Shown here in pieces: positions 36,260 to 50,828 of a stretch of 64,000 bases of DNA. How positions within the stretch are numbered: the first letter of the stretch is position 1; each line of letters opens with the position of its first letter. The notes under the pieces are model-generated. The model saw only the letters and a list, made by a program, of their open reading frames with translations. It was not told where the DNA came from and ran no database searches. The position numbers and the translations under genes were made by a program. Origin of the DNA: Methanoregula sp. (GTDB taxonomy: Archaea; Halobacteriota; Methanomicrobia; Methanomicrobiales; Methanospirillaceae); contig NZ_JAJRCG010000007.1 in NCBI RefSeq assembly GCF_028679125.1, positions 1 through 64,000 of the forward strand. Reading direction: 5' to 3'.

Positions 36260-38155
36260 TCAGATCCCTCCCTTTATCTCGCGCAGCGAGGGAGTCTCGC
36301 GCAGGAACGCGACATCGCTCTTGTGCAGAAGGCGAAGATCCTTGAGCCCCAGCCGGAGCATCGCGATCCGGCTCACGCCAAGTCCCCATGCAAGGACGGG
36401 ATATTTGACGCCGAGCGGGGCGGTGACCTCCTCGCGGAAGACACCGGCGCCACCCATCTCGATCCAGCCAATCCCGTCAACATATACCTCTGCATCGAGG
36501 CTTGGCTCAGTGTAAGGATAGAAGGAGGGTTTGAACCGTACACTCTCGAAACCCATGCGGTTGTAGAACTCGCGGAGGATCCCCAGCAGGTTCCCGAACG
36601 TGACGTTCTCGTCCATCACGATCCCCTCAAGCTGCTCGAACTCCGCAAGGTGCGTGGTGTCAATGGTCTCGCGCCGGTATACCCTGCCGACAGCGAATGC
36701 CTTGACGGGGGGATTGGGGTTCCGGGCAAGGTACTGGATGGACAGGCTCGTGGTGTGGGTGCGCAGCACGCACTGCTCGGCCTTCTCCTCTTTCCATACG
36801 CCACCCCAGCCGGTGGACGAAGTGTCCCCGCCTGAGATGTGCATGGCCTTGACCTTCTCGTACCCTTTCGGGAGCGGGAGGGTCTCTTTGAGGTAGAAGG
36901 TGTCCTGCATCTCGCGGGCCGGGTGATCCTGCGGCTGGAAGAGGGCGTCGAAGTTCCAGAAGGACTGCTGGACGATGCCGCCGTAGAGTTCGGTGAAGCC
37001 CATCTCAAGCAGGATCTCGCGCATCTCGCCGATGATCCGCTGGTAGGGGTGGATCTTGCCGGCGTACGCCTTCTTCGGGAGCTTGGTGACATCGTACCGT
37101 CGGAGGTTGGCATTCTTCCATGCACCCGAGATGATCTGCTTGCGGGTGAGCGTGCCGATTTTATTTTGAGACTCTATATCGAGTTCCTCAAAAGTTTCAT
37201 TCTGATAGTGATCTTGTAATGAAAGAACATTTTTTACGGTCGGTTCATCTTTTACTAAACCACGTTTTATTAATCCAATAACTGTATCTTTATCAAATAT
37301 TGAATCCCCATCGTTGATTTGCTTAAGAACCGTTTCATCAGTTCCCACGGGAGGATTTTCGTTTAATTTATAAATAATTCCATCTTTTACAGTTACCCAT
37401 CCTTTTTTTCGCAGCCATCCGATACCAACATTTGATAGGTCAAATTTTTTCAGTTGTTTTATGTCAATCTTTTCATCAAAGCGATTCAAGAGTTGACGTT
37501 CTGGAAGACCATTATTTAGGTACTCTTTTCCTTCGTCTGTAAGTGTGTAATGTGAAGTCTGGATTCGCTCAACCTTCGCTATTTTTTTTTCTTCAAGTAA
37601 ATGTGCTTGTTGAACCCAAAAATCTGTTATCATTTTTTGACTGACAGATAAATCATTCAATGTCTTTGTAAGTTCTTGAGTATCTACTGTGGAAATAATA
37701 TTCTCCAAATCGAGTTTTATATCAGGAATTGATGATTTTAAATGATTTTTTCGGATATTTTCCATTGCTTTTAGTATCGGAGCATTCAGTTTTTGAAAAT
37801 TTTCCATTGCTTTTAGTGTCGGAGCATTCAGTTTTTGTAAATTCTCAATTGCTTTTAGTGTCGGAGCATTCAGTTTTTGTAAATTCTCAATTGCTTTTAG
37901 TGTCGGAGCATTCAGTTTTTGTAAATTCTCAAATATTTTTTGATTTGATTCATTTAAAACCGAGAAATCGGATAGAATTGCAGTTGTTTTATCTTTTGGT
38001 AAAGGATTTTCACATGCTTTGCGTGTAGGATTATGACTAATCGCAAGATTTGTCGTTAATCCCGCAAGTGTTTCTGCATCGATTTTTTTATTTTCTCCAA
38101 GAATTTTTAATAATTTTTTTTCCTTATTTGACAATTCATCAATTTTTTCTGCCAT
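36260..38155 (-). CDS. pheS: Phenylalanyl-tRNA synthetase, alpha subunit, with AT-rich N-terminal insert
   Basis: The catalytic class II subunit. The C-terminal core (about residues 334-631) is normal: [12 protein letters not shown] (motif 2), [18 protein letters not shown] and [13 protein letters not shown] (motif 3). The protein is 631 residues, against about 480-500 in archaeal relatives. Residues 1-333 are encoded by strikingly AT-rich DNA (about 30 percent GC in sampled lines, about 60 percent in the core). They contain a winged-helix start ([21 protein letters not shown]), then about 140 inserted residues including four 14-residue repeats (76-131), then the rest of the domain ([20 protein letters not shown]). 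The frame stays intact throughout. A longer frame from 38350 overlaps trp[13 protein letters not shown] at 38155 is the start. Confidence 0.92.
37763..37930 (-). repeat. Four tandem 42-base repeats inside pheS
   Basis: Four direct repeats of 42 bases encode [14 protein letters not shown] (twice), [14 protein letters not shown] and [14 protein letters not shown]. The first two copies in the protein (37847-37930 in DNA) are nearly identical at base level and the last has diverged, as expected for recent slippage or unequal exchange. The unit is a multiple of three so the frame is kept. A helix-breaking Pro in each unit suggests a chain of short amphipathic helices. Confidence 0.9.
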
Positions 38156-38157
38156 CG

Positions 38158-39414
38158 TCACACCGTAATCCTGTCCTGTACCGCGTCCATCTTCTCCCGG
38201 AAATCTTTCAGGAACGCGACAACCCGCTCGGCCGTATCCTTCTTGCACTGCCCGCAGGTGATCTCCCCTGCCGTGCACTTCCGCTTGATCTCCGCGAGTT
38301 CTGCATCGTCTGTCACCATGTGGAAGAGGTTGAGGAGGAAGAGCGAGCACTTGTCCGGCTCGCCGCCAAGCCGTTTCTGCTCTTCGAGGGTCATCCTCCC
38401 GCCGGTGATCCCGCTCATCACCTTCTTTCTTACCGTAGCCTCGGGCTCGTAGAAGGAGATGAAACTCTCCGGCACACTTGACGACATCTTCCCGCCGGTC
38501 AACCCGGGCATGAAGATATGGTACGTGGAGGAGGGGGTGAAGAAGGCAAATCCTCCGTTAGCCCGCTCGATCTCCCGGACTTTCCCTTTCACATCGGCGC
38601 ATACAGCACCTTTGATGTCAACGTGCCCCTCGTACTTCTTTGCATGCGGGAAGGCTTTCTTCACTGCTTCCAGCGCCACCTCGGGTGCATTCTTGGACCG
38701 TACACTGATGTACCCGTCACGTTCCTCCACCGTGAACATCCGCATTTTGTGAGCAATTCCGCGGGTGAGGCGGATGTGCGGGTCCTGGTCAACCCCGACC
38801 GGAACGACCGTTGGTGCCGGTTCGCGATCGATCTGGGGGTAGAGGATGTCAGCCACCTGCGTGATCACACTGTCTGCGTGTGCAAGGTCGGTGTCAGGAC
38901 CAAAACCGTAAATTGCCGAGAGCTCCGAGAAATTAACCTTGGTCGCCGCCTCGAACGCAAGATCCTTGAGCCGGTTGTTCCTGCTCTGGAAGAATGTCTC
39001 TCCTTCAAACCCAAGGGCATACAGGCACGAGAGGTACTCTTTTCCGTACTCGTTACACTTCTCCCAGGACAGACCGCGAACCGCGTGCGCCTCGCGATCG
39101 GCGATGGTAATGTACCCGTTACCGCCCTGCTGCACGTGCCAGACCACCTCTTTCATCACCATCAGGTGGCCGAGATGCGGGTGGCCGCTCGGCATGAACC
39201 CGGTGAGAATATGAAACGGAGTCTTGTTCCGGATTGCCTGCGCAATAGGGTGGTAGTCCCGGTGACCTACCACAATACCCCGACGCATGAAATAGGGGAT
39301 CTCCGGCAGTTCGGCCATGACCGGTGCACTGGGGTCGATGCCGAACTCGGCAAATGTCTTCTCGATGTCAAGGGACGGTGTGCTTGACCAGGGGTTGATC
39401 TGCGGTTCCTGCAT
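38158..39414 (-). CDS. trpS: Tryptophanyl-tRNA synthetase
   Basis: A class I synthetase of 418 residues charging tRNA-Trp. The HIGH-type motif is PSGHPHLGH (75-83) and the KMSKS-type motif is KMSSS in GGKMSSSVPESF (about 315). The archaeal/eukaryotic-type N-terminus and GVDQDPHIRLTRGIAHKM support TrpRS over TyrRS. It lies 2 bases before pheS and 9 bases after endA, forming an endA-trpS-pheS-pheT operon of tRNA functions. Confidence 0.95.
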   Translation of the reverse strand: MQEPQINPWSSTPSLDIEKTFAEFGIDPSAPVMAELPEIPYFMRRGIVVGHRDYHPIAQAIRNKTPFHILTGFMPSGHPHLGHLMVMKEVVWHVQQGGNGYITIADREAHAVRGLSWEKCNEYGKEYLSCLYALGFEGETFFQSRNNRLKDLAFEAATKVNFSELSAIYGFGPDTDLAHADSVITQVADILYPQIDREPAPTVVPVGVDQDPHIRLTRGIAHKMRMFTVEERDGYISVRSKNAPEVALEAVKKAFPHAKKYEGHVDIKGAVCADVKGKVREIERANGGFAFFTPSSTYHIFMPGLTGGKMSSSVPESFISFYEPEATVRKKVMSGITGGRMTLEEQKRLGGEPDKCSLFLLNLFHMVTDDAELAEIKRKCTAGEITCGQCKKDTAERVVAFLKDFREKMDAVQDRITV

Positions 39415-39423
39415 GATAAAAGC

Positions 39424-40434
39424 TCACAGTTTGATTCGTGCGAATTCGACGAACTGGATTCCGGAGGAGTGTACGGCGCCAAACAACATCTTCTTTTTGA
39501 CGCTGTGGGCCATGCGGACAGAGCGCGAGATGACGCTCATGGCAAGCGATGCCTCCTTCTCGACGGCGTGGACCAGGAGGTCTGAGTGAGCGGACGTGCC
39601 GCAGTACACCCGGAAGTGGTGGCCGAACTTGTATCCGGTGCGGGGTGTGAACCCGTGACCACGAAGATCGGTGTAGACCGTATGCTTCAGGGTGAGTTCG
39701 GTATCCACATCGCATGCAAGGGCAAGGTATTCGGAGGCGCTTATTGTCTTATTACCCCGCGAAAGCCGGATTGTCCCCTGGTTCATGAGATAGAGGAGCT
39801 CAACCGGAGAGATCATGAGGCGCTCGGAATCAAGCCGCTTGCCATAGCCGGCCTGCTCAAGGGGGGAACCAGCCTGCACCCGCACCATCGCAGACTTCCC
39901 GGTCAGAATTGCATCGGTGGGAGAGAGGGCTGTGATGGCACATGCTGAATCCACCAGTTTCTGGAGTTTGATCTCGTAATAGGTGAGCTCCTGCTCGTCG
40001 TCGACAACTGCAAGGATGTACTGCTTGCGCATGTTGCGCGAGGCCATCACTTCCTCGATCAGCTTGTCGAACCGGATGGGGTCGCGCTCCGAGAGGACCC
40101 GCACAAGATAGAGCGACTCGCCCTTGCCGGGTTTCTCGCCGCGCCGGAAGACCCGGAAGTCGTGCGGTCCGGTCTGGACCACGTAGCCGCGTTCCCGCAG
40201 GTCGCGGTACACGAGGAAACTGCGCATCACATTGGGCTGGTCGGCAAACTCGGCAAAGAGTGTGTCAAACGAGTGCCCCGGCACCTCAATCTTCTGCCGG
40301 TGGAGCAGATAGAGGGCTTCCTGCGGCGAGAGCCGGAGACCGTCGCTCTCGGGCCTGCCGTACCCGCTCTGATCGTACAGGGATCGCCCGTCATTCCCAA
40401 CGCGGATGGTCGTACCATCAAATGTAGCCTTCAC
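39424..40434 (-). CDS. endA: tRNA-splicing endonuclease, double-domain form
   Basis: This enzyme cuts introns from tRNA precursors at bulge-helix-bulge sites. The 336-residue protein contains two tandem copies of the endonuclease fold. The N-terminal copy (RSFLVYRDLRERGYVVQTG) lacks the catalytic set; the C-terminal copy has Tyr268 (TGYKFG), His283 (AHSDLLVHAV) and a Lys in HSVKKKMLF (313-315). This matches the dimeric (alpha2) architecture of some euryarchaea. It opens the operon with trpS, pheS and pheT. Confidence 0.93.
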   Translation of the reverse strand: MKATFDGTTIRVGNDGRSLYDQSGYGRPESDGLRLSPQEALYLLHRQKIEVPGHSFDTLFAEFADQPNVMRSFLVYRDLRERGYVVQTGPHDFRVFRRGEKPGKGESLYLVRVLSERDPIRFDKLIEEVMASRNMRKQYILAVVDDEQELTYYEIKLQKLVDSACAITALSPTDAILTGKSAMVRVQAGSPLEQAGYGKRLDSERLMISPVELLYLMNQGTIRLSRGNKTISASEYLALACDVDTELTLKHTVYTDLRGHGFTPRTGYKFGHHFRVYCGTSAHSDLLVHAVEKEASLAMSVISRSVRMAHSVKKKMLFGAVHSSGIQFVEFARIKL

Positions 40435-40728
40435 TGCCGGATCTATTTCTCACAGAGGATTATAAGGTCGCCTGACGCGCGGGATCCGGTGCCGCGGGAA
40501 CCCGGCAGCCAAACTGTTTGAAATCCTTATGAATTACAATATCTGCATCAATGCTTATAAAAAGGGGAAAAACGAACTTTGTTAGTCCAAACGTATCTCA
40601 TAAGTATGCTTATTTGCACGTCCCCGCGGATGAACACCATTCCGGGAAAACCTGGGTAATACTATAGGATACACTGGTCCCCACACCGGAAATTTTTTCT
40701 CGAAGCCATAAGAAGCGGCGGAAAAAAG
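40435..40728. other. Divergent promoter region between endA and the six-gene accessory operon
   Basis: About 290 non-coding bases. Two TATA-like elements point rightwards: CTTATAAAAA at 40554-40563 and ACTATAGGAT at 40661-40670; the second is 60 bases before the radical SAM start and is the better candidate. No repeat or RNA gene is seen. Confidence 0.4.
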
Positions 40729-41364
40729 ATGGTGCACAAATACAACGACCCCGGATGCCGACGCATGTGCAGACTCAACCTCTCAGGTTTTCTCCTGCGT
40801 TCAGCCGTAAATGGCCCCGGCATCCGGACCGTTGTCTGGGTACAGGGGTGCCCGATCCGGTGCAGGGGTTGCTTCAACACAGCGACCTGGTCCTTTTCTT
40901 CCCAGCATATCGTTTCCACACGCAAGCTTACGGCACGCATCCTCGGCATTGAGGGAACCGACGGCGTCACCTTCTCCGGAGGCGAGCCATTTGAGCAGGC
41001 CGGGCCGCTCGCAGAGGTGGCAGAGCAGGTATGTGAGGCGGGGCTCACCGTTGTCACCTATTCCGGGTATACGTACGAACAACTGACCGCGCGCAATAAC
41101 CCTGCGTGGGACCGGCTCCTTGCAACAACAGATCTCCTCATCGCCGGACCATATAAGGAAGATATGGCCTGCACAACCCCATTCGTGGGATCGGCAAACC
41201 AGCGGGTAATCCCCCTGACCGGAAGGGTCGTTCCGGAGCCTGCGTCTCCACAGCAGGGAGAGACCGTCGAGTTCACCATTGCACCAGACGGCACGGTCAC
41301 GACCACAGGGTTCCCGGATGCAACCATGGTCCGGCAGATCGCTGCACGGTGCCGGGGAGAGTGA
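40729..41364 (+). CDS. Radical SAM/4Fe-4S protein, NrdG-like activase family
   Basis: A 211-residue protein with the SAM-cluster motif CPIRCRGC (Cys41, Cys45, Cys48), GVTFSGGEPFEQ (SAM-binding GGE) and LIAGPYKEDM, as in activating enzymes of glycyl-radical enzymes. No glycyl-radical enzyme or ribonucleotide reductase is adjacent. Instead it begins an operon with DUF1257 and AAA+ genes, where similar '4Fe-4S single cluster' proteins are often found. It may modify or activate a protein of this system. An in-frame ATG at 40765 (MCRLNLSGFLLRS) could be the true start. The next gene starts 5 bases after its stop. Confidence 0.82.
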   Translation: MVHKYNDPGCRRMCRLNLSGFLLRSAVNGPGIRTVVWVQGCPIRCRGCFNTATWSFSSQHIVSTRKLTARILGIEGTDGVTFSGGEPFEQAGPLAEVAEQVCEAGLTVVTYSGYTYEQLTARNNPAWDRLLATTDLLIAGPYKEDMACTTPFVGSANQRVIPLTGRVVPEPASPQQGETVEFTIAPDGTVTTTGFPDATMVRQIAARCRGE

Positions 41365-41368
41365 AAAC

Positions 41369-41767
41369 ATGTCGCATTTCAGCCGCATCAAAACCACGTT
41401 CCGACACCGCGAGGCGCTGGTGCAGTGCATGCAGGAACTCGGTTACACGGTAGAAACCAACACCACTATCAAGGGATACCATGGCCTGCACAATGTGGAC
41501 ATTGCCGCCAGGAAGTCCAACGGGTACGCGCTGGGTTTTGTAAAGAATGCCGACGGGTCGTATGACCTGGTGGCAGACTGGTGGGGTGTTTCCGGCAAGG
41601 GTGAGCAGAAGATAGCCGATGAACTGAAGCGGCAGGCCGAATCCATCCAGCAGGAGTATGCGAAGAAGATGGTGCTCGAACAGGTAAAGAAGGACGGGTT
41701 TGAACTGGTTTCCGAGAAGAACGAACAGAACGGTACGGTTCGGCTGGTTGTCCGGAGATGGAGATAG
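41369..41767 (+). CDS. DUF1257 (Ycf35-like) protein
   Basis: A 132-residue soluble protein of the DUF1257 family, named Ycf35 in plastids and cyanobacteria; no biochemical function is established. It begins MSHFSRIKTTFRHREALVQC and has the typical DIAARKSNGYALGFVKNADGSYDLVADWWG centre (positions about 48-76). The frame is open from 41279, but ATG 41369 follows GGGGAGA and matches the family start. It ends in TAG. It is 4 bases before the AAA+ ATPase gene, so translation is probably coupled. Confidence 0.85.
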   Translation: MSHFSRIKTTFRHREALVQCMQELGYTVETNTTIKGYHGLHNVDIAARKSNGYALGFVKNADGSYDLVADWWGVSGKGEQKIADELKRQAESIQQEYAKKMVLEQVKKDGFELVSEKNEQNGTVRLVVRRWR

Positions 41768-41771
41768 GACC

Positions 41772-43334
41772 ATGCAACTGATCGAACCCGATTTCTCCCG
41801 TCGGCTCAACATCTCCCTCCGTGCCCGTGTCACCCTGATCGTCGTCATCACGCCCGAAGAAGAAAGAGCAGTCTCGCAGATCCGGGAGGTGTGCGAGACC
41901 TGGGACCCTCCCCGCCAGTGTATTGCCTGGGACAGTGTTGACGGTTTCTCTGTGATTGCCGGCACCAAGAACTTTCCCAGCCAGTCGCGGGACCCTCTTA
42001 CTGCGCTCGATGACATTGTCAAGACCAGCGATGACGCAGTTATCATCCTCAAGGATTTCCATGAGTACTGGAACAACCCGCAGGTCAAGCGCCGGATCCG
42101 GAACTTCTCGCAGGCGTTCCGGTACAACCGCCGGACTATCATGATCGTAACCCCGACTCCCCGGGTCCCGGACGAGATCCGCGACGAGGCCGTGATCATC
42201 CACTTCCCCCCTCCGAATGCAACCGAACTCTCAGACGACCTCGACACACTCATTGCCACAAGCGGCATCCCCTGCTCTCTCTCTCCCGGAGGGAGAGAGA
42301 AGATTATCCAGGCAGCCCTTGGAATGACCCTGAACCAGGCACGACGGGCATTTTCCAAGGCAATTGTCACAAGGGGCACGCTCGATGACCAGGATATCGA
42401 TGCCATCATTGCCGACAAGAAGGACATCCTGAATGCATCGGATGCGCTGGAGTTCTACAGTTACACCGAGACTCCCGAGAATGTGGGCGGCCTTCTCGTC
42501 CTCAAGGAGTGGCTTGGCCTGCGCGAGCGGGCGTTCACGCAGGAGGCCCGGGACTTTGGCCTTCCTGCCCCCAAAGGTATCGCCCTCATCGGCATCCCGG
42601 GGACCGGCAAGAGCCTGACAGCCAAGATGATCGCCGATATCTGGCACCTGCCGCTCCTTCGCCTCGATGTGGGAGCGCTCTTCGGGAGCCTGGTGGGTGA
42701 GTCCGAGGAACGGACACGCCGGGCCCTTGCACTTGCCGAGACGATCAGTCCGTGCATCCTCTGGGTGGACGAAATCGAGAAGGCGTTTGCGTTTGGCAGT
42801 GGTGATGCCGGCACCAGCCAGCGGGTCTTTGCCCACCTCCTTACGTGGATGCAGGATAAGACCTCCCCCTGTTTTGTCGTAGCAACCGCCAACAACATCG
42901 CGGCACTCCCACCGGAACTCTTAAGGAAAGGGCGCTTTGACGAGATCTTCTTCCTTGACCTGCCGACAAGAGAGGAGCGGCGCGAGATCTTCACCGTACA
43001 CCTCCGGAAACGCAAGTGTATCCCCGCGGAGTTCGACCTCGATACCCTTGCCCGGGAGAGCGAGGGGTACGTGGGCGCCGAGATCGAACAGACCATTATC
43101 GACGCCATGTACCGGGCGTTCAATGAGAAGATGCGCCGGGTCACGACAGACGACATCCTCTCCTGCATGCAGGCACAGGTACCCCTCTCGGTATCGCAGA
43201 GGGAAACCGTTGCAGCACTCCGGGCATGGCTTGCCGAGGGGAGAGCACAGTCGGCATCGCGGACCGCCCCGGCCCGGGCTCCGATTAACGGCAAGACGAT
43301 CGCGCTGGAGACATTTGCAAACGGGCACCCGTGA
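41772..43334 (+). CDS. Ycf46-like AAA+ ATPase
   Basis: A 520-residue ATPase. The N-terminal domain (1-230) resembles the degenerate P-loop-like region of Ycf46 (LTALDDIVKTSDDAVIILKDFHEYW), and the C-terminal AAA+ module has Walker A GIPGTGKS (274-281), pore loop FGSLVGESE (304-312), Walker B ILWVDEIEKA (329-338), sensor-1 Asn374-375 and arginine fingers in LLRKGRFDE (Arg385, Arg388). All catalytic elements are intact, so it should hydrolyse ATP and probably form a ring that threads or remodels a partner. It is flanked by DUF1257 and WD40 genes. ATG 41772 is chosen over the longer frame. Confidence 0.88.
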   Translation: MQLIEPDFSRRLNISLRARVTLIVVITPEEERAVSQIREVCETWDPPRQCIAWDSVDGFSVIAGTKNFPSQSRDPLTALDDIVKTSDDAVIILKDFHEYWNNPQVKRRIRNFSQAFRYNRRTIMIVTPTPRVPDEIRDEAVIIHFPPPNATELSDDLDTLIATSGIPCSLSPGGREKIIQAALGMTLNQARRAFSKAIVTRGTLDDQDIDAIIADKKDILNASDALEFYSYTETPENVGGLLVLKEWLGLRERAFTQEARDFGLPAPKGIALIGIPGTGKSLTAKMIADIWHLPLLRLDVGALFGSLVGESEERTRRALALAETISPCILWVDEIEKAFAFGSGDAGTSQRVFAHLLTWMQDKTSPCFVVATANNIAALPPELLRKGRFDEIFFLDLPTREERREIFTVHLRKRKCIPAEFDLDTLARESEGYVGAEIEQTIIDAMYRAFNEKMRRVTTDDILSCMQAQVPLSVSQRETVAALRAWLAEGRAQSASRTAPARAPINGKTIALETFANGHP

Positions 43335-43347
43335 GGCATGAGAACAC

Positions 43348-46146
43348 ATGAGGAACGCCTTTATCCTCCCTCTCATCGGCTCCCTGCTTCTGCGGCGTGA
43401 TGTATGGAGACTGGCCGGTGCGGTAAAGAGCGGAGATATTACTGCTGTCTGCGACCTTGCTGCCATTGCTGCAACATCACCCGATACAGTTGCACGGGCG
43501 ATTGCACGGGAAGGCCTTTCCGCCATCCCTTCCCAGGAGGCTGTCGATGCCTTGTGCAGGGAAGTGCTGATGCGGGAAGACCCTGCCCTCCGGGAACTGG
43601 CCATGAAGCAGGGGTACGCTCCCAGCGAACCGGGGGCGCGTGCGATCTTTCTATACCTGACCGGGCAGGATGATGCACTCTTCAAACTCGATCCCGAACC
43701 CCATCACCCGATCCTTGCACAGGGATATGCAGAGGCACCGGGCCGAATACAGGCAATGGCTCTCCGCAGTGCCAGAGATCACGGCAGGGCTCTTGCACAT
43801 GCTCTCCTGGAAACCGACCCGAACCATGCTGCCCGGGCATGGTCGTATGACGAATGGGAGGTTGTTCTTGAAACACTTGCAGGAGAGAAATCATGGGATA
43901 CGCTCTGGATGCTCATCGGCCAGGCACCTCCGGCTCTTTCCGTTTCTGCCCTGCACCGGATGAACAATGCAGGCTGGTACCCGGGTGGCGATGCCCGACA
44001 GGTCTTCGAAGAAATGATCCGCAACCTTCCGAAGATATGGACTGCCCCGGTACCAGAGAGACCACTTGTTACCCGGGAGATACAGGAGAAACGGAGCCTG
44101 CGGATTTCCTTCTCGAGAGATGGTTCGCTCCTTGCTTCCGGTACCTGTGATGGCCAGGTCACGGTCTGGCAGGTTGCTTCCTCCCGGCTTGTGGCGTCCT
44201 GCTCAACCGGCACCGGTTCCGTCCGTTTCCTTGCCTTAACTCCTGACAACACTATCCTGATCACCGGGGGGGACCGTGGGACCCTGCACGCCACCAGTAT
44301 CTCCAATAGTGAAACGATCTGGACATGGGATGATCCCTGCCACCCTATTACAACCGCAATCCTGTCCGCCAATGGCGATGAGATATTAGCCGGGGATACA
44401 AACGGCGTGTGCCTCCGCATCGGGTGCGCAACCGGAACAGTCCACCATATTGATCCCGGCTGTACATCTCCGGTCACCGCCATTGCCACAACACCGGACG
44501 GACTGTCAATTGCAACCGGTCATGCAGACGGTGCGGTATGCAGCCGTGATACACTCACTGGGGCCGTGAAGTGGATGGTTCCGGGTACCGGCGATCCGGT
44601 CAGGGCGCTTGCATTCCCGACCCCGACCGAAACCGATACTCGTTGCCTGATAGTTATTCGTGGACAGACCCCACCGGTACTTCTTTCGGCAGAGAATGGC
44701 GAACCGGTGCGGATATACACGGGATATACCGGCCATATCTCCTGCCACGCGATATCACCCGATGGCAGGTCGATTGGTATTGGAGGTGACGACAACGTGC
44801 TCCTCATCTGGCAGGATCGCGAGTATCCGGCAGCGGAGATCCCGCTTTACAACCGCTCGGCAACCTGCTGCGCCTTTGTGCCCGAAGGCACGTACCTCGC
44901 AACCTGCTGCAATGACGGTACCATCTATTACCTGAACGTTCCCGACGGCGGGAAAGTAAAGGAATTTCGGGCATACCGTCGCCCGGTCACTACCTGTGCC
45001 ATCTCCCCGGATGGCAGGTTCCTTGCTACTACAGGATGGGACGGAATGATCGCACTGCGGAGTATTCCTTCGGGTGAACTTCTCCGCACCCTCAAACGCC
45101 CCACCGGTGCCGTCACTGCTCTTGCTCTTGTGGGTGATGGGGGGATTCTTGCCGGTACCGCGGACGGGACCGCATGGATCTTTCCCCACGGAGATGCCTC
45201 CGCGGGTCGGTCCATCGATATGTACACACCATCAATCCGGGCCCTTGCAGCCAGCCCTGACGGAGCGTTCCTTGCCTGTGCCGGGAAAGAACCGAATCTT
45301 CGCATCTGGGATATGATGACCGGCAGTCTTGTTGCTTCCTGCGAGGGCCTGAAGACCACTGTGCGGTGTCTTGCCTTCCTGCCGAATGGGAAAACCTGCA
45401 TTTCCGGTGGCTGGGACGGTGTTGTGCGGCTCTGGGACGTACCGTCAGGCACTGCTGTAGGAACCCGTACCGGACACACGAGCATCATCAACTGCTGTGC
45501 GGTGGATCCGTCTGGAGTACTGTTTGTTACAGGCAGTAATGACACGACCGTGCGGATCTGGAACCACGCCAGCGGGAAGGAACCGGTTATACTCCGGGAT
45601 GCAGCAAAAGAGGTGAACTGCTGTACGATCTCCCCGGATAGTATGCTCCTTGCGGCAGCCGGGCTGGAGCCGGTCATCTGGTTGTATTCCCTTCCTGAAG
45701 GGATGTTAATCGGAACCATCCCATCGGTCCCGGGGAAACTCACAGCCTTATCCTTCACAACCGACGGCCTTGCCCTTGCAGCAGGCTACGCGAGTGGGAC
45801 GCTGGCATTCTACTCAATTCATGACCGCTCCCTGATCCGTACCCTGTACGCCCATGCCGGGACAGTAACCGGGATCGTGCCCGTGTCAGGGAAAGACTAC
45901 ATTGTTACCAGCGGGGAGGATGGCAGGATCCACACATTCGGGGTCCCTTACCAACATTCCCTCTCGCTTGCCACACTCGACGATCTCATGAGAGCACAGG
46001 AGCAAGAGAAGACGTGCGGCAACAGTGGGATGGCGGAGCAATGGCGGTTTCTCTGCGAACTGCTTGCCCTCCGGTTCCAGAACGAGATAGAACTCTGCCC
46101 GGTCTTCCGCGATGCCGGGGTCTATGATATCCAGATTGTCGGGTGA
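43348..46146 (+). CDS. Large WD40 double-propeller protein
   Basis: A 932-residue cytoplasmic protein, function unknown. Residues 1-240 are helical with HEAT-like pairs. From about 249 to 875 there are about 15 WD40 blades (for example VRLAF-like starts, SPDGRFLATTGWDG, GGWDGVVRLWDV, TGSNDTTVRIWN), enough for two seven- or eight-bladed propellers. A helical tail (LSLATLDDLMRAQEQEK onward) ends the chain. Several blades carry paired cysteines (NCCAV, TCCAF, NCCTI), which is unusual. As the fourth gene, between the AAA+ ATPase and the Hsp70-like protein, it is likely the scaffold of the system. Confidence 0.85.
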   Translation: MRNAFILPLIGSLLLRRDVWRLAGAVKSGDITAVCDLAAIAATSPDTVARAIAREGLSAIPSQEAVDALCREVLMREDPALRELAMKQGYAPSEPGARAIFLYLTGQDDALFKLDPEPHHPILAQGYAEAPGRIQAMALRSARDHGRALAHALLETDPNHAARAWSYDEWEVVLETLAGEKSWDTLWMLIGQAPPALSVSALHRMNNAGWYPGGDARQVFEEMIRNLPKIWTAPVPERPLVTREIQEKRSLRISFSRDGSLLASGTCDGQVTVWQVASSRLVASCSTGTGSVRFLALTPDNTILITGGDRGTLHATSISNSETIWTWDDPCHPITTAILSANGDEILAGDTNGVCLRIGCATGTVHHIDPGCTSPVTAIATTPDGLSIATGHADGAVCSRDTLTGAVKWMVPGTGDPVRALAFPTPTETDTRCLIVIRGQTPPVLLSAENGEPVRIYTGYTGHISCHAISPDGRSIGIGGDDNVLLIWQDREYPAAEIPLYNRSATCCAFVPEGTYLATCCNDGTIYYLNVPDGGKVKEFRAYRRPVTTCAISPDGRFLATTGWDGMIALRSIPSGELLRTLKRPTGAVTALALVGDGGILAGTADGTAWIFPHGDASAGRSIDMYTPSIRALAASPDGAFLACAGKEPNLRIWDMMTGSLVASCEGLKTTVRCLAFLPNGKTCISGGWDGVVRLWDVPSGTAVGTRTGHTSIINCCAVDPSGVLFVTGSNDTTVRIWNHASGKEPVILRDAAKEVNCCTISPDSMLLAAAGLEPVIWLYSLPEGMLIGTIPSVPGKLTALSFTTDGLALAAGYASGTLAFYSIHDRSLIRTLYAHAGTVTGIVPVSGKDYIVTSGEDGRIHTFGVPYQHSLSLATLDDLMRAQEQEKTCGNSGMAEQWRFLCELLALRFQNEIELCPVFRDAGVYDIQIVG

Positions 46147-46147
46147 T

Positions 46148-47752
46148 ATGATGGACCGGTATGCACAAGATTCTAAACCAGCCACCTGCATCGGGATAGA
46201 CTTTGGGACGGGATCACTTGTCTGCGGCTGTGCACTGCAAGACGGTGATTATAAGACGCTCTCGTTCCCCGGATGGTCGCAGGAGATCCCTGACCTGAAT
46301 GGTTCCGGGCCGGTCCACCGCATACCGGTCCTGGTCCATTACCCGGACAGCGGAGACCATGCCATTGGTGACGAGGTGTTACGCGCCGGCTGTAGGGATC
46401 ACCCCGCAACGGCCCGGTGGATCCGTAATTACCTGCTCAAGGAGAGTACAGCACAGATATCCACCGGCACAGGTCGCCGGATCACCTTCCGCGATGCTGC
46501 TGCCGATCTCCTCGGAACTGTGTTTGCACGGGCTGTACAGGAATGCCCGGATACGGGATACGTTGTCTTCGCCATCCCTGACGATGCACCATCCTGGTAT
46601 GCAGTCTGGCTCAGCAGTATCGCTCATACCGCCGGGATTGAGTCATGCCATACAATAGATGAGTGTGCTGCGGTACCTGCCGGGTACGGCCTTACGGTGG
46701 AGGAGGGGCAGTCGTGTATACTCGTCAGTATCGATGAGAACGACCTTGCCATCTCCCTTGTCCGGAACAATGGCTCCCGGGGGCTTGGGGTTGCCGGAAC
46801 TTCCCGAGAAGATACGGGGTGCCGGGCACTGGACGGCTGGATTGCACAGGAGATTGTGGCAAAGAGCCGGGTGAGGTATACCGGCACCCGGGCGCAGAAG
46901 CTGTACGATGCGGCCCTCGCGAGCGTCGGCGATGTATATTATCAACTTGCTCGCGGCGATGAAGTATCGATCGACTTCACGGACCCGGTTACCTCACTAA
47001 TCATCTCCGTCCGGCTGACCACGGATGATATCACCCATTGTATCGCAGAATGCGGCCTGCCGTTCATCCTTGATCAGGCTCTCGGGCATGCACGGGCAGT
47101 TGCACGGACACAGGGGTACCCGAATGATCCCCCGATCGCGGTCCTGATGACCGGACGGGGCTCGGTTATCCCAGCGGTTCAGGCGCTGGTGCAACAACAG
47201 TTCCCGGGTATTCCTGTCCGGTGCGACCACCCATTCGATGCCATTGCACGGGGAGCAGCCACATCCTCTCCCAGGACACCCAGAGCAGACCGCATCAAAA
47301 ACCACTACGCGCTCCAGTACTGGGACCCGACTGAAAGAGAGCACCGGTACCGTTTCCTTGTGCGGAGCGGGGCACGTTACCCGAGCGCCGGACAGGTTGC
47401 CCGGATCACCATCAGCGCGGCGTATGATGGCCAGACCCGGCTTGGAATCCCGTTGTACGAGCTCCGCACCGCACCGGAGGCAACCGCACCAGATCTTGAA
47501 CTGGTCTCGGATCCTGCCGGGGGTATCCGGCTTGCCGGGCCACCGGAGGATACAAACGGGGGGAGCAGGCCGGTGCTGATGAACGGCAGAACACCAACAC
47601 TGCTCACTGCCGACCCACCTGCCCTGAAAGGCGAGCCGAGGTTTGAGCTGACCTTTGTCCTTGACCGGGAGCGGCGCCTCTGCGTCACGGCCCGCGATCT
47701 TATGACGGGGCTGCTGGTAAAACGGGAAGCGCCGGTGCACCAGCTGACGTGA
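46148..47752 (+). CDS. Hsp70/actin-like ATPase
   Basis: A 534-residue ASKHA-fold protein. Phosphate-1 is CIGIDFGTG (14-22), and the phosphate-2/adenosine loop near 334 is LMTGRGSVIPAVQALVQQ, followed by DHPFDAIARGAA, as in DnaK-family proteins. The C-terminal part (about 390-534) is beta-rich and resembles a reduced substrate-binding domain, but the helical lid and EEVD-type end are absent. No dnaJ or grpE is adjacent. The start is ATG 46148 or 46151, directly after the WD40 stop, with GGTGA as the binding site. It is likely a dedicated chaperone-like or cytoskeleton-like ATPase of this operon. Confidence 0.82.
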   Translation: MMDRYAQDSKPATCIGIDFGTGSLVCGCALQDGDYKTLSFPGWSQEIPDLNGSGPVHRIPVLVHYPDSGDHAIGDEVLRAGCRDHPATARWIRNYLLKESTAQISTGTGRRITFRDAAADLLGTVFARAVQECPDTGYVVFAIPDDAPSWYAVWLSSIAHTAGIESCHTIDECAAVPAGYGLTVEEGQSCILVSIDENDLAISLVRNNGSRGLGVAGTSREDTGCRALDGWIAQEIVAKSRVRYTGTRAQKLYDAALASVGDVYYQLARGDEVSIDFTDPVTSLIISVRLTTDDITHCIAECGLPFILDQALGHARAVARTQGYPNDPPIAVLMTGRGSVIPAVQALVQQQFPGIPVRCDHPFDAIARGAATSSPRTPRADRIKNHYALQYWDPTEREHRYRFLVRSGARYPSAGQVARITISAAYDGQTRLGIPLYELRTAPEATAPDLELVSDPAGGIRLAGPPEDTNGGSRPVLMNGRTPTLLTADPPALKGEPRFELTFVLDRERRLCVTARDLMTGLLVKREAPVHQLT

Positions 47753-47802
47753 GAACCGAATGCGCGCGATTGCGTGAGAACTAAAAAACAAGGAGGATTA
47801 TC

Positions 47803-48006
47803 ATGGAGATGCAGGAACTGGAAATCACGATCGATCACGAAGGAAAGATACAGGTAAAGGTGAACGGTGCGCACGGGGCAGACTGCCTAGCGCTCACGAA
47901 GAATATCGAGGATGTCGTGGGGGTTGTCGAGGACCGGGTCTACTCACCGGAGTACTACGAGCAACCGGTGACCACCAGCGAACACCAGCGGCTCGCCTTC
48001 CGATAA
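47803..48006 (+). CDS. DUF2997 small protein
   Basis: A 67-residue protein of the DUF2997 family: an N-terminal beta-hairpin (ELEITIDHEGKIQVKVNGAHGADC) followed by a helix (LTKNIEDVVGVVEDRVYSPEYYEQ) and a short tail ending LAFR. DUF2997 genes are commonly near DUF1257 genes in other genomes; function is unknown. AGGAGGAT immediately upstream is the strongest ribosome binding site of the operon, so this small protein is probably made in excess over the large ones, as expected for a substrate or adaptor. Confidence 0.85.
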   Translation: MEMQELEITIDHEGKIQVKVNGAHGADCLALTKNIEDVVGVVEDRVYSPEYYEQPVTTSEHQRLAFR

Positions 48007-48048: not shown

Positions 48049-49071
48049 TCAGCAGAAATTCTCGGTCACGTAGATCTTGTCATCGGACGAGAAGGCAACC
48101 CCGATCCCTTCCTGCTGCAATTTCTCATTGAGGATATTCTCGCGGTGTCCTTCGCTGTTCATCCACCCGATCACTGCCTGCTTCGCAATAAAATCGAGGG
48201 AACTCCAGTTATAGGAGACAATTGTCCCGTTTGGTGCCGTCAGGTAGGTCTGATACCTGTAGCCCTGATACAGGTTCTCGGATATGCCCTCGGTATAGTA
48301 TGTCCCGTAGTATCGGATACACGGATACCCGGCCCAATTCCCCCGGGCATGGGCATCCCTTCCATCAGGGGTTGTGTGATCAAAGAAGTTCCGAAGCGAC
48401 ATGTCGTAACTGTGCCCCCTGGCGATATCGGCGAGGAACGAATCATACGACAGGGGAGAGAGTCCATTGTACTGCCGCTCGATGTTGATCAGTTCATGGA
48501 TCCGTGTCTCCAGGGCAGAGGGGTCGATGTAGGGCGCATCGGGATGGGAGCTGGTATACGAGCTCGAGTCTGGCTGGGAAGGTACCTGGGTGACGGCAAG
48601 CGTGATCTGCGAGGTTCCTGTTGCCACGGGAGATTGTGTGGTCACGGTGTATGTCGGGCTTGGGGTACCCGTCACCTGCGTCTGCTTCGTAGTAACCGTA
48701 GTGGCGGCAGTTGTCGGCACCGTTGTGGGAACCATTGTTTTTGTGGTGACCGGTATTTCCGGCGTGGTGGGGAGGGGGGTTGTCGTGGGCAGGGAGGGCA
48801 AAGAAGTCGTGGCCTCAACCTGTGCCTGGCCGGTTGTAGCAGAACCTGCAGATGGTGAGCTGAAAAACACTGTGAGGAGACCCGAAGCGGCGACTACAGC
48901 AATAACGATGATGACAACAAGAACTAAGGCTCCGACAAGAGCCCGGACCGGGATGCCCCCGATCTTCGTTACAGGAAGCAGGTCCGGCAGTTTTACGCCG
49001 CACCGGGTACAGAACTTCTGGGTGGAGTCATCCGTTATCGCTCCGCAGTGCGTACAGGTCTTGCGCGCCAT
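48049..49071 (-). CDS. CAP/SCP-domain protein with zinc ribbon and membrane anchor
   Basis: A 340-residue protein with a cytoplasmic zinc ribbon (Cys6, Cys9, Cys21, Cys24), a transmembrane helix (about 43-66), a Thr/Ser/Pro-rich outer linker (about 75-175) and a CAP domain (about 195-340) with HSYDMSLRNFFDHTTPDGRD, ENLYQGYRY and VIGWMNSEGHRENIL. CAP domains outside the cell bind lipids or act on surface polymers. The ATG at 49071 (MARKTCTHCG) is preferred to an upstream one. The gene is convergent with the accessory operon, 42 bases away. Confidence 0.85.
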   Translation of the reverse strand: MARKTCTHCGAITDDSTQKFCTRCGVKLPDLLPVTKIGGIPVRALVGALVLVVIIVIAVVAASGLLTVFFSSPSAGSATTGQAQVEATTSLPSLPTTTPLPTTPEIPVTTKTMVPTTVPTTAATTVTTKQTQVTGTPSPTYTVTTQSPVATGTSQITLAVTQVPSQPDSSSYTSSHPDAPYIDPSALETRIHELINIERQYNGLSPLSYDSFLADIARGHSYDMSLRNFFDHTTPDGRDAHARGNWAGYPCIRYYGTYYTEGISENLYQGYRYQTYLTAPNGTIVSYNWSSLDFIAKQAVIGWMNSEGHRENILNEKLQQEGIGVAFSSDDKIYVTENFC

Positions 49072-49118
49072 GGTTGATGTGCATGGCACCTGCAAGGGAA
49101 AAAACGTATCTTTGGATG

Positions 49119-49958
49119 TTACCGTGCAAGATCCCGCACGGCCTGGATATTGCCCCGGTCATCCCGCCGGTCGTCCATGGGAGTCTCGCAGATAAGGGGG
49201 AGGGAGGAGAATACGGTGTTGTGGAGGATACTTCGGAAGCCGCTTTCGCCAATGAACCCGAGACCGATATGTTCGTGCCGGTCAAGACCGCTGCCCCGGT
49301 CACCCTTGGTATCATTGAGGTGGATGACCCGGAGGTTTCTTTTACCCACCGATTCATCGAGCTGTCCCAGCGTCTCTGCAATCGCGTCTTCTGTCCGAAG
49401 ATCGTACCCGGCCGCAAACGCGTGACAGGTGTCAAAGCAGATCCCCACCCGGTTCTTCGCTTCGATCCCGTCCAAGATCCCCCGGATATGCTCGAAACGG
49501 GAACCAACGCTGTTCTTCTCCCCCGCGGTGTTCTCAAGGAGAAGCATCGTGGGGCTCCCCGATGCCGCAAGGGCATGATTGATGGCATCGATCACGCGGA
49601 CACGCCCGCCCGCAATCCCGTCGCCGAGGTGGTGACCGAGATGAGTGACAAGATACGGGATACCAAGCGTCCCGCACCGGTCGATCTCGGCGGTGAGGGT
49701 TGCTACAGACTTCTCGTAAACATCCGGTTTCGGTGAGGCAAGGTTTGGCAGGTATGGCATATGATCGACCGGGAGGAGACCGGTTGTTTTGATCTTTGAC
49801 CGGAATGTTTCGGCTGTTTCCGGGCTGACGGGCTGGTAGCCCCATCCCCGGGGATTGCGCGAGAACATCTGGAACACGTCGCACCCGGCATCCCTTGCAC
49901 GGTCCACTGCAAGGTCGAGGGACCCGGCGATCGATACATGGACCCCAACCTTCACCAT
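49119..49958 (-). CDS. nfo: Endonuclease IV (AP endonuclease)
   Basis: A zinc-dependent base-excision repair nuclease of 279 residues that cuts at abasic sites. Typical elements are VGVHVSIAGSLDLAVDRARDAG, QMFSRNPRGW, LVTHLGHHLG, LLENTAGEKNSVG, GICFDTCHAFAAGYD, HLNDTKGDRGSGLDRHEHIG and the final LICETPMDDR, which together supply the three-zinc site. It complements the OGG1-type glycosylase found at 31611. It appears to be a single gene. Confidence 0.95.
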   Translation of the reverse strand: MVKVGVHVSIAGSLDLAVDRARDAGCDVFQMFSRNPRGWGYQPVSPETAETFRSKIKTTGLLPVDHMPYLPNLASPKPDVYEKSVATLTAEIDRCGTLGIPYLVTHLGHHLGDGIAGGRVRVIDAINHALAASGSPTMLLLENTAGEKNSVGSRFEHIRGILDGIEAKNRVGICFDTCHAFAAGYDLRTEDAIAETLGQLDESVGKRNLRVIHLNDTKGDRGSGLDRHEHIGLGFIGESGFRSILHNTVFSSLPLICETPMDDRRDDRGNIQAVRDLAR

Positions 49959-50054: not shown

Positions 50055-50828
50055 TTACGCCTGTCCGATGGCCCGGGAATAATCCTGAGGGCCTGTGGGG
50101 GCCGGGGGCCGGATCTGCTGGTTGAGGTAGCCTGCCACCGGCCCTGGGATCTCGTACGCGGTCAATCGTCCTTCACGCCGGGAAAGGACGATATGATCCT
50201 CTTCGAGCCGTTTCATGTGCCACGAGACGGATGGGCCCGAGACGCCGACCGCGTCCGCAATATCCTGTCGGGTTACCATCGGCCGGTCGAGCAACACCCC
50301 AAGGATCTTCTTCGTGGTCTCGTTCCGCAAGTGTTTCAGGATCTGCTGCTCCTCAGTCGAGTACGTACCGCTGTTCTCGTAGAAGCGGATCGAGGCATTA
50401 TCACCGCTGACGGCGATCTTGTGGGTGTGCTGCAGCACCGAAAGGTGGTAGCGCAGGGTCCCGAGCTTCACCTGCATCTCGGTCGAGAGCCCCCGCAGGT
50501 GGATGCCCGGGTTCTGGCAGATATACCCGTAGATCCGGGCCCGGACATCCTGATCGAGCACGTTGCCCCCAGAAACGCGCCGGATCCCCATGTATGCCCA
50601 GAGCTTGATCGCAACAAGGATCTCTGGCGGGACCAGCACCAGCTGGGCGAGCATCAGCCAGAGGGGCAGGGACCAGAACGGGACGGGCACCGGAACCCGG
50701 GCATCGGCCCCGGCCGGTACCGGGCTGTCGTAGCCTGAGGTCACGGTGTATTCCTGTGCTGCCACAGCACTCACGGCACCAAGACAGGAGATGACCACCA
50801 GAACGAACAGGAATCGGGAGTACTTCAT
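50055..50828 (-). CDS. Membrane-anchored protein with two winged-helix domains
   Basis: A 257-residue protein with an N-terminal hydrophobic signal (about 5-24), a short outer loop, a transmembrane helix (SLPLWLMLAQLVLVPPEILVAI, about 53-74) and two cytoplasmic winged helices: ARIYGYICQNPGIHLRGLSTEMQVKLGTLRYHLSVLQ (about 97-133) and ILGVLLDRPMVTRQDIADAVGVSGPSVSWHMKRLEED (about 175-211), ArsR/MarR-like. It lies 8 bases after a gene for a secreted protein, so the pair may form a sensing unit. The ligand and targets are unknown. Confidence 0.8.
   Translation of the reverse strand: MKYSRFLFVLVVISCLGAVSAVAAQEYTVTSGYDSPVPAGADARVPVPVPFWSLPLWLMLAQLVLVPPEILVAIKLWAYMGIRRVSGGNVLDQDVRARIYGYICQNPGIHLRGLSTEMQVKLGTLRYHLSVLQHTHKIAVSGDNASIRFYENSGTYSTEEQQILKHLRNETTKKILGVLLDRPMVTRQDIADAVGVSGPSVSWHMKRLEEDHIVLSRREGRLTAYEIPGPVAGYLNQQIRPPAPTGPQDYSRAIGQA

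Follow-up and report, generated by a model that had tools for sequence, protein, structure and literature searches.

Six genes on the forward strand of a Methanoregula sp. contig (NZ_JAJRCG010000007.1 of assembly GCF_028679125.1, positions 1 to 64,000, a stretch of 64,000 nucleotides referred to here as the window) form an operon-like unit that recurs, with its gene order shuffled, in other phyla. They code for a radical S-adenosylmethionine (SAM) protein, a DUF1257 (Ycf35) protein, a Ycf46-type AAA+ ATPase, a WD40 scaffold, an Hsp70-like protein and a DUF2997 protein. We propose, with a probability of roughly 45%, that the operon codes for a stress-linked AAA+/Hsp70 protein-remodelling complex in which an Fe-S radical enzyme acts on, or for, small adaptor proteins. 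The proposal draws on the recurrence of all partners around the AAA+ gene in rearranged order, on the all-or-none inheritance of the unit at one site, on the Hsp70 fold, the missing lid and the GrpE-like neighbours of the Hsp70-like protein, and on smaller forms that keep the AAA+, DUF1257 and DUF2997 genes together. The six genes are:

40729..41364, forward strand: NrdG/PFL-activase-like radical SAM gene, 211 residues (Fer4_12, 4.5e-33; CxxxCxxC)
41369..41767, forward strand: DUF1257/Ycf35 gene, 132 residues (Pfam DUF1257, 5.9e-25)
41772..43334, forward strand: Ycf46-type AAA+ ATPase gene, 520 residues (Pfam AAA, 8.3e-30; Walker A and B)
43348..46146, forward strand: HEAT-like/WD40 scaffold gene, 932 residues (Pfam WD40, 3.9e-66)
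46148..47752, forward strand: lid-less Hsp70-like gene with a lost phosphate-2 loop, 534 residues (motif alignment and AlphaFold2 model)
47803..48006, forward strand: DUF2997 small protein gene, 67 residues (Pfam DUF2997, 8.7e-15)

From 5' to 3', the intergenic gaps are 4, 4, 13, 1 and 50 bases. The open reading frame (ORF) list, the junction sequences and Pfam agreed with a preliminary description of this DNA on the coordinates, the common strand, the gaps of 1 to 50 bases and the families. That description had also seen an operon-like unit in the six genes, and since the fixed order recurs in the Methanoregulaceae, their arrangement is not due to chance. All six were found in one order in 17 of 20 congener loci, the remaining three being cut by contig ends, and eight of nine further Methanoregulaceae loci (two of the nine from congeners) were complete in the same order, the ninth being cut. 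In one locus (L033) the Hsp70 gene is present as two adjoining ORFs.

Outside the family, genomes were scanned with an alignment of the AAA+ protein, because the DUF1257 alignment was too divergent to serve as the query. The best 80 loci were retained and three from Methanoregulaceae excluded; the 77 analysed were divided by the identity of their AAA+ protein to that of the window into 14 at 50% or above and 63 below. Partners were counted within 8 kb and on the same strand as the AAA+ gene. Such a query biases the sample toward kin of the AAA+ protein, and counts from the best 80 loci are not prevalences. All five partners accompany the AAA+ gene in 8 of the 77 loci: 7 of the 14 with high identity, from Sporomusa, Actinomadura, three Chloroflexota and two Planctomycetota, as against one of the 63 others, that of a nanoarchaeon. 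Four of these eight loci have a GrpE-like gene. For the single partners the figures were 11/14 versus 2/63 (radical SAM), 12/14 versus 12/63 (DUF1257), 10/14 versus 10/63 (DUF2997), 11/14 versus 2/63 (WD40) and 9/14 versus 3/63 (Hsp70), with Fisher p values from 4e-9 to 9e-5 that ignore the shared ancestry of the 14 loci. Counting the lid-less Hsp70 family alone gave 8/14 (Fisher p 2e-5); the "Hsp70" of an Anaerolineaceae locus, L081, was rejected as a member of that family, as it is a canonical DnaK with a lid. The order of the genes varies: it is WD40-Hsp70-DUF1257-AAA-DUF2997-radical SAM in Sporomusa, and, with small uncertain ORFs omitted, AAA-WD40-WD40-Hsp70-DUF1257-DUF2997-radical SAM in L076 and DUF1257-DUF2997-radical SAM-AAA-DUF1257-WD40-GrpE-Hsp70 in L078. 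The neighbourhood search proposed in the preliminary description thus finds the set in other phyla, and that the linkage survives such reshuffling argues for a joint function. Among 29 annotated loci, a profile of scaffold residues 1-240 picked out the WD40 proteins of 12 from outside the family (2e-22 to 1e-56), so these are related proteins rather than arbitrary WD40 proteins. The nanoarchaeal WD40 protein was not matched by this profile.

Smaller forms were found on plasmids and in phages. A Paenibacillus polymyxa plasmid carries a DsbA gene followed by AAA+-DUF1257-DUF2997-radical SAM (the last identified by Pfam), a P. urinalis plasmid the order radical SAM-x-AAA-x-DUF1257-DUF2997, and a Rhizobium phage AAA+-x-DUF1257-DUF2997. 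On a Pseudanabaena plasmid the order is GrpE-Hsp70-DUF1257-(AAA_21)-x-DUF2997-AAA-HEAT/WD40, with no radical SAM gene among the annotated neighbours. In two Chlorobiaceae loci a lid-less Hsp70 gene and a Ycf46-type AAA+ gene make up a triad with a gene for an FGE-sulfatase-domain protein (L119:8336-12328, assigned by Pfam, and L145:175-3924, assigned by similarity); FGE, TPR and zinc-ribbon neighbours, present in few loci, were rejected as core members. Judging from gene content, the core is AAA+, DUF1257 and DUF2997, often with an Fe-S protein, and an extended form adds Hsp70, HEAT-WD40 and GrpE. In the Prochlorococcus phages P-SSM7 (L069:5832-6384) and P-SSM2 (L070:5802-6381), DUF2997 overlaps DUF1257 and both are annotated as hypothetical; the P-SSM7 pair lies near psbA, hli and ferredoxin genes. 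On pTRESU01, a plasmid of Treponema succinifaciens, DUF1257 lies within a phage-tail-type cluster (L063:7001-7408) and a relative of the AAA+ gene about 54 kb away. These phage pairs and the Treponema gene carry little of the argument. No DUF1257 or DUF2997 gene was annotated in the AAA+ neighbourhoods of a mycobacteriophage and a Calditerrivibrio plasmid, and the one phage neighbour of an AAA+ relative that was scanned gave no domain match.

Within the archaea the unit is patchy but keeps to one place. DUF1257 was found in 21 of the 60 genomes of a search among relatives, namely the source genome, 20 of 35 congeners and none of 24 genomes from the other families of the order, and in 13 of 344 sampled genomes of the phylum, all 13 Methanoregulaceae. 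Two single-contig congeners (G011 and G016) have no DUF1257 gene; several other congeners are incomplete. The site is bordered by:

39424..40434, reverse strand: endA, tRNA-splicing endonuclease, left border of the slot (NF006796, 4.4e-169)
49119..49958, reverse strand: nfo-like gene, right border of the slot by its position beside the operon, which we take to be endonuclease IV

The operon lies between these two genes in 25 of the 32 loci examined (L028 and L072 being one contig); of the other seven, five are cut or miss a border and two, L037 and L053, lie at other sites. Among nine of the 15 congeners without DUF1257 that were checked, endA was found in nine and nfo in eight, and in all eight the two adjoin, 124-449 bases apart. 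At this slot, the unit is present whole or absent whole. A CAP-domain protein gene, convergent to the operon, occupies positions 48049-49095 of the window, and the endA-nfo spacing in the operon-less congeners is too short for this gene as well. In a quick, midpoint-rooted tree of 96 AAA+ sequences, with open forks and long branches, the 16 Methanoregulaceae rows formed one group (support 100), with Sporomusa sp. KB1 as its sister (98) among other bacteria. The tree fits a single transfer from bacteria to the ancestor of the Methanoregulaceae.

Patchy presence (20 of 35 congeners, with G011 and G016 lacking the gene), relatives on plasmids and phages, and, in L081 (11618-13435), a gene pair for the EcoRI endonuclease and methylase that lies between DUF1257 and the AAA+ gene are also what would be expected of a defence system. 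In such an NTP-driven conflict system the AAA+ and Hsp70 proteins would act as threshold switches, the HEAT/WD40 protein as a sensor, and the radical SAM enzyme would modify DUF2997 as the effector. A related grammar, with Hsp70 and GrpE and with radical SAM proteins acting on a peptide effector, is described in PMC7159879 (represented here, like the other papers cited, by part of its text). The published systems, however, are built on a vWA-MoxR or GTPase core with effectors, and domain scans of the six proteins gave no vWA, MoxR, GTPase, protease, nuclease or variable effector. The slot in the Methanoregulaceae is fixed between housekeeping genes and their AAA+ proteins form one clade, and phages themselves carry small forms. 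PADLOC gave partial matches only, to the AAA domain (IetA, 1.9e-23), to the WD40 repeats (HEAT-ARM_XIII) and, weakly, to the radical SAM protein as a viperin (pVip, 4e-4), and assignment to a defence system on this basis was rejected. We therefore consider a conflict system doubtful, and return to a remodelling complex, whose motor and chaperone components are considered next.

The AAA+ protein consists of an N-terminal non-AAA region, the AAA domain and a lid (AAA_lid_3). Residues K280, D333, E334, R385 and R388 are invariant in four aligned rows, and both Walker patterns are present in 113 of 113. It is about 42-46% identical, over approximately residues 8-500, to cyanobacterial homologues that we take to be Ycf46, slr0374 itself being outside the comparison. 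The protein falls well short of the IteA/IetA family (NF042959, 80.9 bits against a cut-off of 510). By its motifs, this is the sole clear ATPase of the window operon.

The fifth protein matched no Hsp70 family in Pfam at E ≤ 0.01 (MreB_Mbl, at 0.0065, was under the cut-off), gave weak HscA/DnaK matches in other profile scans, and was not recovered when the whole genome was searched with PF00012, which returned the ordinary DnaK alone. Its AlphaFold2 model (pLDDT 87, pTM 0.72), however, has as best PDB match a lid-less DnaK (5obu, E 1.3e-28, TM 0.52), and the orthologue in L053 matches PF00012 at 3.2e-31. The label Hsp70-like is thus right, and both the nucleotide-binding domain and the β part of the substrate-binding domain (SBDβ) are present in the window protein. 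In an alignment with Escherichia coli DnaK, 22 of 23 Hsp70-like rows stop after SBDβ, L081 alone having a lid; the window protein has 12 residues past the column of DnaK residue 505, as compared with 134 in DnaK. D194 and T199 of the DLGGGT loop, together with K70, have roles in a working DnaK chaperone. In the window protein the phosphate-2 loop (DnaK 194-201) reads SIDENDLA in place of DLGGGTFD, and an arginine stands at K70. None of 19 congener copies keeps the loop pattern (L028 and L072 again being one contig), as against five of eight from sister genera and, outside the family, 14 of 15 long copies, all but that of Sporomusa. Two of the latter, L125 and L131, are long Hsp70 genes on the strand opposite the AAA+ gene and may fall outside the lid-less family; without them the count is 12 of 13. 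The window protein is probably a pseudo-Hsp70 rather than a working ATPase, and the loss of the loop and of the K70 equivalent suggests that the operon has one working ATPase. Of the Hsp70/actin-like ATPase of the preliminary description, the Hsp70 fold therefore stands and the ATPase activity is not supported, and the two ATPases that it counted probably reduce to the AAA+ protein, which alone has intact ATPase motifs.

The ordinary DnaK gene of the source genome lies on a contig other than that of the operon and adjoins a GrpE gene. Among the loci elsewhere a GrpE-like gene was found in 7 of 29 annotated (of six scanned with Pfam, four were over and two under the cut-off). The loci from bacteria or plasmids that have a lid-less Hsp70 number 12 (L066, L073, L076-L080, L084, L086, L116, L119, L145), and six of them carry such a gene. 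Possibly, the linkage to GrpE was lost before the ATP site decayed. That this site of the Hsp70 decayed inside one archaeal family, in operons that are otherwise whole, offers a natural experiment on an Hsp70 free of ATP hydrolysis.

The scaffold has a HEAT-like N-terminal part (approximately residues 1-240) followed by WD40 repeats. HEAT_2 scored 0.01 in the window protein, under the cut-off, but passed it in the homologues from L079 (6e-7) and L066 (7.5e-9). The scaffold had been described as a 932-residue double propeller, a description that misses the HEAT-like part.

The complex would most likely work under oxidative or iron stress, a link that we draw from cyanobacterial data and from one bacterial neighbourhood. 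In cyanobacteria fed7 adjoins duf2997 and ycf35, a two-hybrid test shows binding of Synechocystis Fed7 to Sll1384, a DnaJ protein, and a fed7 mutant is sensitive to iron limitation and to oxidative and metal stress (PMC4284462); DnaJ-ferredoxin proteins are dealt with in PMC3564930. The ycf46 operon responds to lack of iron, lack of sulphur, salt and oxidative stress (PMC7496141), and loss of ycf35 and ycf46 correlates with a freshwater habitat in red algae (PMC5940233). In Sporomusa sp. KB1 (L073:3768-8283), the set starts 29 bases after cydAB, coding for cytochrome bd oxidase, a hint at oxygen stress. Some of these data would also suit a factor for the assembly or repair of one Fe-S or membrane enzyme, with the motor and scaffold specific to that client rather than general. 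Inactivation of ycf46 in Synechocystis lowers the activity of a single enzyme, the carbonic anhydrase EcaB (cited in PMC7496141), and cydAB might in Sporomusa point to the client. No constant neighbour enzyme was found, however, among the selected flanking genes scanned in the bacterial loci, and we regard such a client-specific factor as unlikely.

For a remodelling complex, DUF1257 and DUF2997 would be the adaptors. The window DUF1257 protein scores 87.9 bits with PF06868 (cut-off 22.2) and begins with MSH, which is invariant in 38 rows that had been selected for an MSH-like start. Its model (pLDDT 82, pTM 0.70) has the predicted fold β-α-β-β-β-β-long helix-β-β; it had no PDB match at E ≤ 0.001, scattered weak matches being set aside, and one good match without a name and one borderline match in a library of viral structures. 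DUF2997 has a conserved GxxGxxC..T..E motif, with C28, T32 and E36 invariant in nine rows. All 59 aligned rows have cysteine at the C28 column, including an out-of-frame ORF in L026 that is probably no gene; this column supersedes a looser pattern count (57/58).

The Fer4_12 match of the radical SAM protein covers residues 27-161 (Radical_SAM, 1.2e-4, was under the Pfam cut-off), and a tail of about 50 residues follows. The motifs CxxxCxxC, NGPGxR and SGGEP, typical of glycyl-radical-activase-like radical SAM proteins, are all present in the alignment, and CxxxCxxC is kept in 44 of 46 rows, the exceptions being L079 (arginine for the first cysteine) and L062 (a different spacing). The tail resembles the N-terminal hairpin of DUF2997 (hhalign P 5e-5, probability 67%, over 20 columns only), whereas a single control against DUF1257 gave 0.2%; this likeness is one point in favour of the proposed complex. 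The same likeness, and the pairing of one radical SAM enzyme with one 67-residue protein with an invariant cysteine, could also mean that DUF2997 is a modified peptide product that the chaperones merely present or export. That peptide-maturation scheme appears distinctly improbable, as the six genes include no protease or transporter and DUF2997 accompanies AAA+ and DUF1257 also where no radical SAM gene is seen nearby.

A reading of the radical SAM protein as no more than a displaced NrdG for the anaerobic ribonucleotide reductase, next to unrelated genes, is very improbable: the protein is the best match in a genome-wide NrdG profile search (104.8 bits) and the genome has an NrdD with a separately encoded glycyl-radical domain, but its TIGR02491 score (104.1 bits) is under the cut-off of 126.1, nrdD lies on another contig, contig C9 has a second, weaker candidate activase (31.7 bits), the slot is empty in eight congeners (where another NrdG was not searched for), and outside the family the gene travels with the other five. 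The NrdD of this genome (C1:259949-261682) ends without a glycyl-radical domain; a 120-residue ORF on contig C16 (L156:1300-1662, approximately 50348-50710), with a Cys-rich, zinc-site-like part and RVTGY, would by its motifs be that domain. It overlaps the start of a gene read as cbiZ-like.

In the remodelling complex that we propose, the Ycf46-type AAA+ protein, with its intact ATPase motifs, would be the motor, presumably as a ring, and the HEAT/WD40 protein and the lid-less Hsp70 would, to judge from their folds, hold or present clients. In bacterial versions the Hsp70 usually has the ATP-site motif, and half of those seen lie beside a GrpE-like gene; in the genus of the window, the decayed pseudo-Hsp70 may be a binding or regulatory subunit only. 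Ycf35 and DUF2997 would serve the motor as small adaptors; in cyanobacteria the pair is found next to ferredoxin 7, which there takes the place of the radical SAM protein. The NrdG-like enzyme might modify an adaptor, with the DUF2997 cysteine or its vicinity as the likeliest site, or it might use its 4Fe-4S cluster to sense redox state or iron; remodelling would thereby be switched by Fe-S status. A more detailed version, which is decidedly speculative, would have a modification installed by the radical SAM enzyme at or near that cysteine license Ycf35 and DUF2997 to couple the Ycf46 motor to the HEAT-WD40/lid-less-Hsp70 client holder, the Methanoregula Hsp70 being a pure binding subunit and the AAA+ protein supplying all energy. 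The preliminary description had spoken of a complete energy-driven maturation or remodelling machine; the unit of six holds and its second ATPase is not supported, and the role as a machine is one that we, too, infer.

Several observations weigh against a remodelling complex. Physical interactions, client and activity are all putative, the proposal being drawn from sequence, predicted folds and gene linkage. Seven of the 14 high-identity loci miss at least one partner (L085 has none; two are present in L082 and in L083, three in L081 and in L086, and four in L074 and in L075), although several contigs are cut; in L086 the radical SAM gene is on the opposite strand. WD40 and Hsp70 neighbours are rare (two and three) among the 63 lower-identity loci, and the archaeal operons showed no GrpE gene. 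Strong AAA+ threaders carry an aromatic pore-loop residue, and the corresponding position here, GSLVGE, has none. The DUF2997 cysteine is kept where no radical SAM gene is seen nearby (cyanophages, Planktothrix) and so is not specific to that enzyme, and the resemblance of the radical SAM tail to DUF2997 loses weight for its shortness. The stress data are cyanobacterial, and there ycf46 and ycf35 sit in separate operons; the cydAB, DsbA and Mn-pump neighbours are each a single case.

If the more detailed version, with its licensing modification, is right, this would be, to our knowledge, the first remodelling AAA+/Hsp70 system with a radical-enzyme switch, and Ycf35, Ycf46 and DUF2997 would gain roles. 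Many algal plastids and cyanobacteria keep Ycf35 and Ycf46, whose biochemical role is not known, and no such role for DUF2997 was found in the literature searched. The presence of the set in non-photosynthetic organisms suggests that these proteins act in protein remodelling or repair rather than in photosynthesis, and makes their role testable outside cyanobacteria with few genes, as in the four-gene Paenibacillus form.

The source assembly comprises 2.67 Mb in 33 contigs. Read from the sequence, two candidate elements accompany the operon:

40554..40563, forward strand: candidate archaeal TATA-like element, cttataaaaa, 5' of the operon
47790..47799, forward strand: ribosome-binding-like site, aaggaggatt, ahead of DUF2997 inside the 50-base gap

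An ORF at 36260-38350 has, in its N-terminal half, a tandem repeat with a unit of about 14 residues; we presume, from its sequence and not from a domain scan, that it codes for a PheS-like protein.

The six-part set was not found described as one system in the literature searched, a partial search that covered few subscription papers or preprints, in agreement with the earlier statement that no characterised operon of this form is known. Related in grammar are the MoxR-vWA and the GTPase-HSP70-GrpE conflict systems, which share AAA+ or Hsp70 with GrpE, propeller or repeat sensors and sometimes a radical SAM protein by a peptide; the operon differs from them in having no vWA, MoxR, GTPase or effector module, and the available part of PMC7159879 makes no mention of "ycf", DUF1257 or DUF2997. 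The ClpB-DnaK-GrpE bichaperone likewise joins an AAA+ motor to an Hsp70, with a GrpE-like gene present in half of the bacterial versions seen here. The operon, however, has another AAA+ family, a lid-less Hsp70, a radical SAM protein and a HEAT-WD40 protein, has no J protein among the scanned genes, and in the window genus has lost the Hsp70 motif; a coupling of motor and Hsp70 is suggested here by gene linkage. Ssz1 of the ribosome-associated complex is a non-canonical Hsp70 in the role of a partner subunit, a role that the window protein may share, and 6sr6 is among the structure matches of the Hsp70-like model, but Ssz1 is ribosome-bound and works with a J protein and with no AAA+ or radical SAM protein. 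The cyanobacterial duf2997-ycf35-fed7 group (fed7 being Synechocystis sll0662) differs in that a ferredoxin replaces the radical SAM protein, in that ycf46 (slr0374) sits in a separate operon, and in that no Hsp70 or HEAT-WD40 partner is named in the accessible part of PMC4284462. It matches the co-occurrence of DUF1257, DUF2997 and an Fe-S protein that the preliminary description had named: the three are adjacent, a Ycf46 AAA+ protein is present in the same cell, and Fed7 is tied both to a DnaJ co-chaperone and to iron and oxidative stress.

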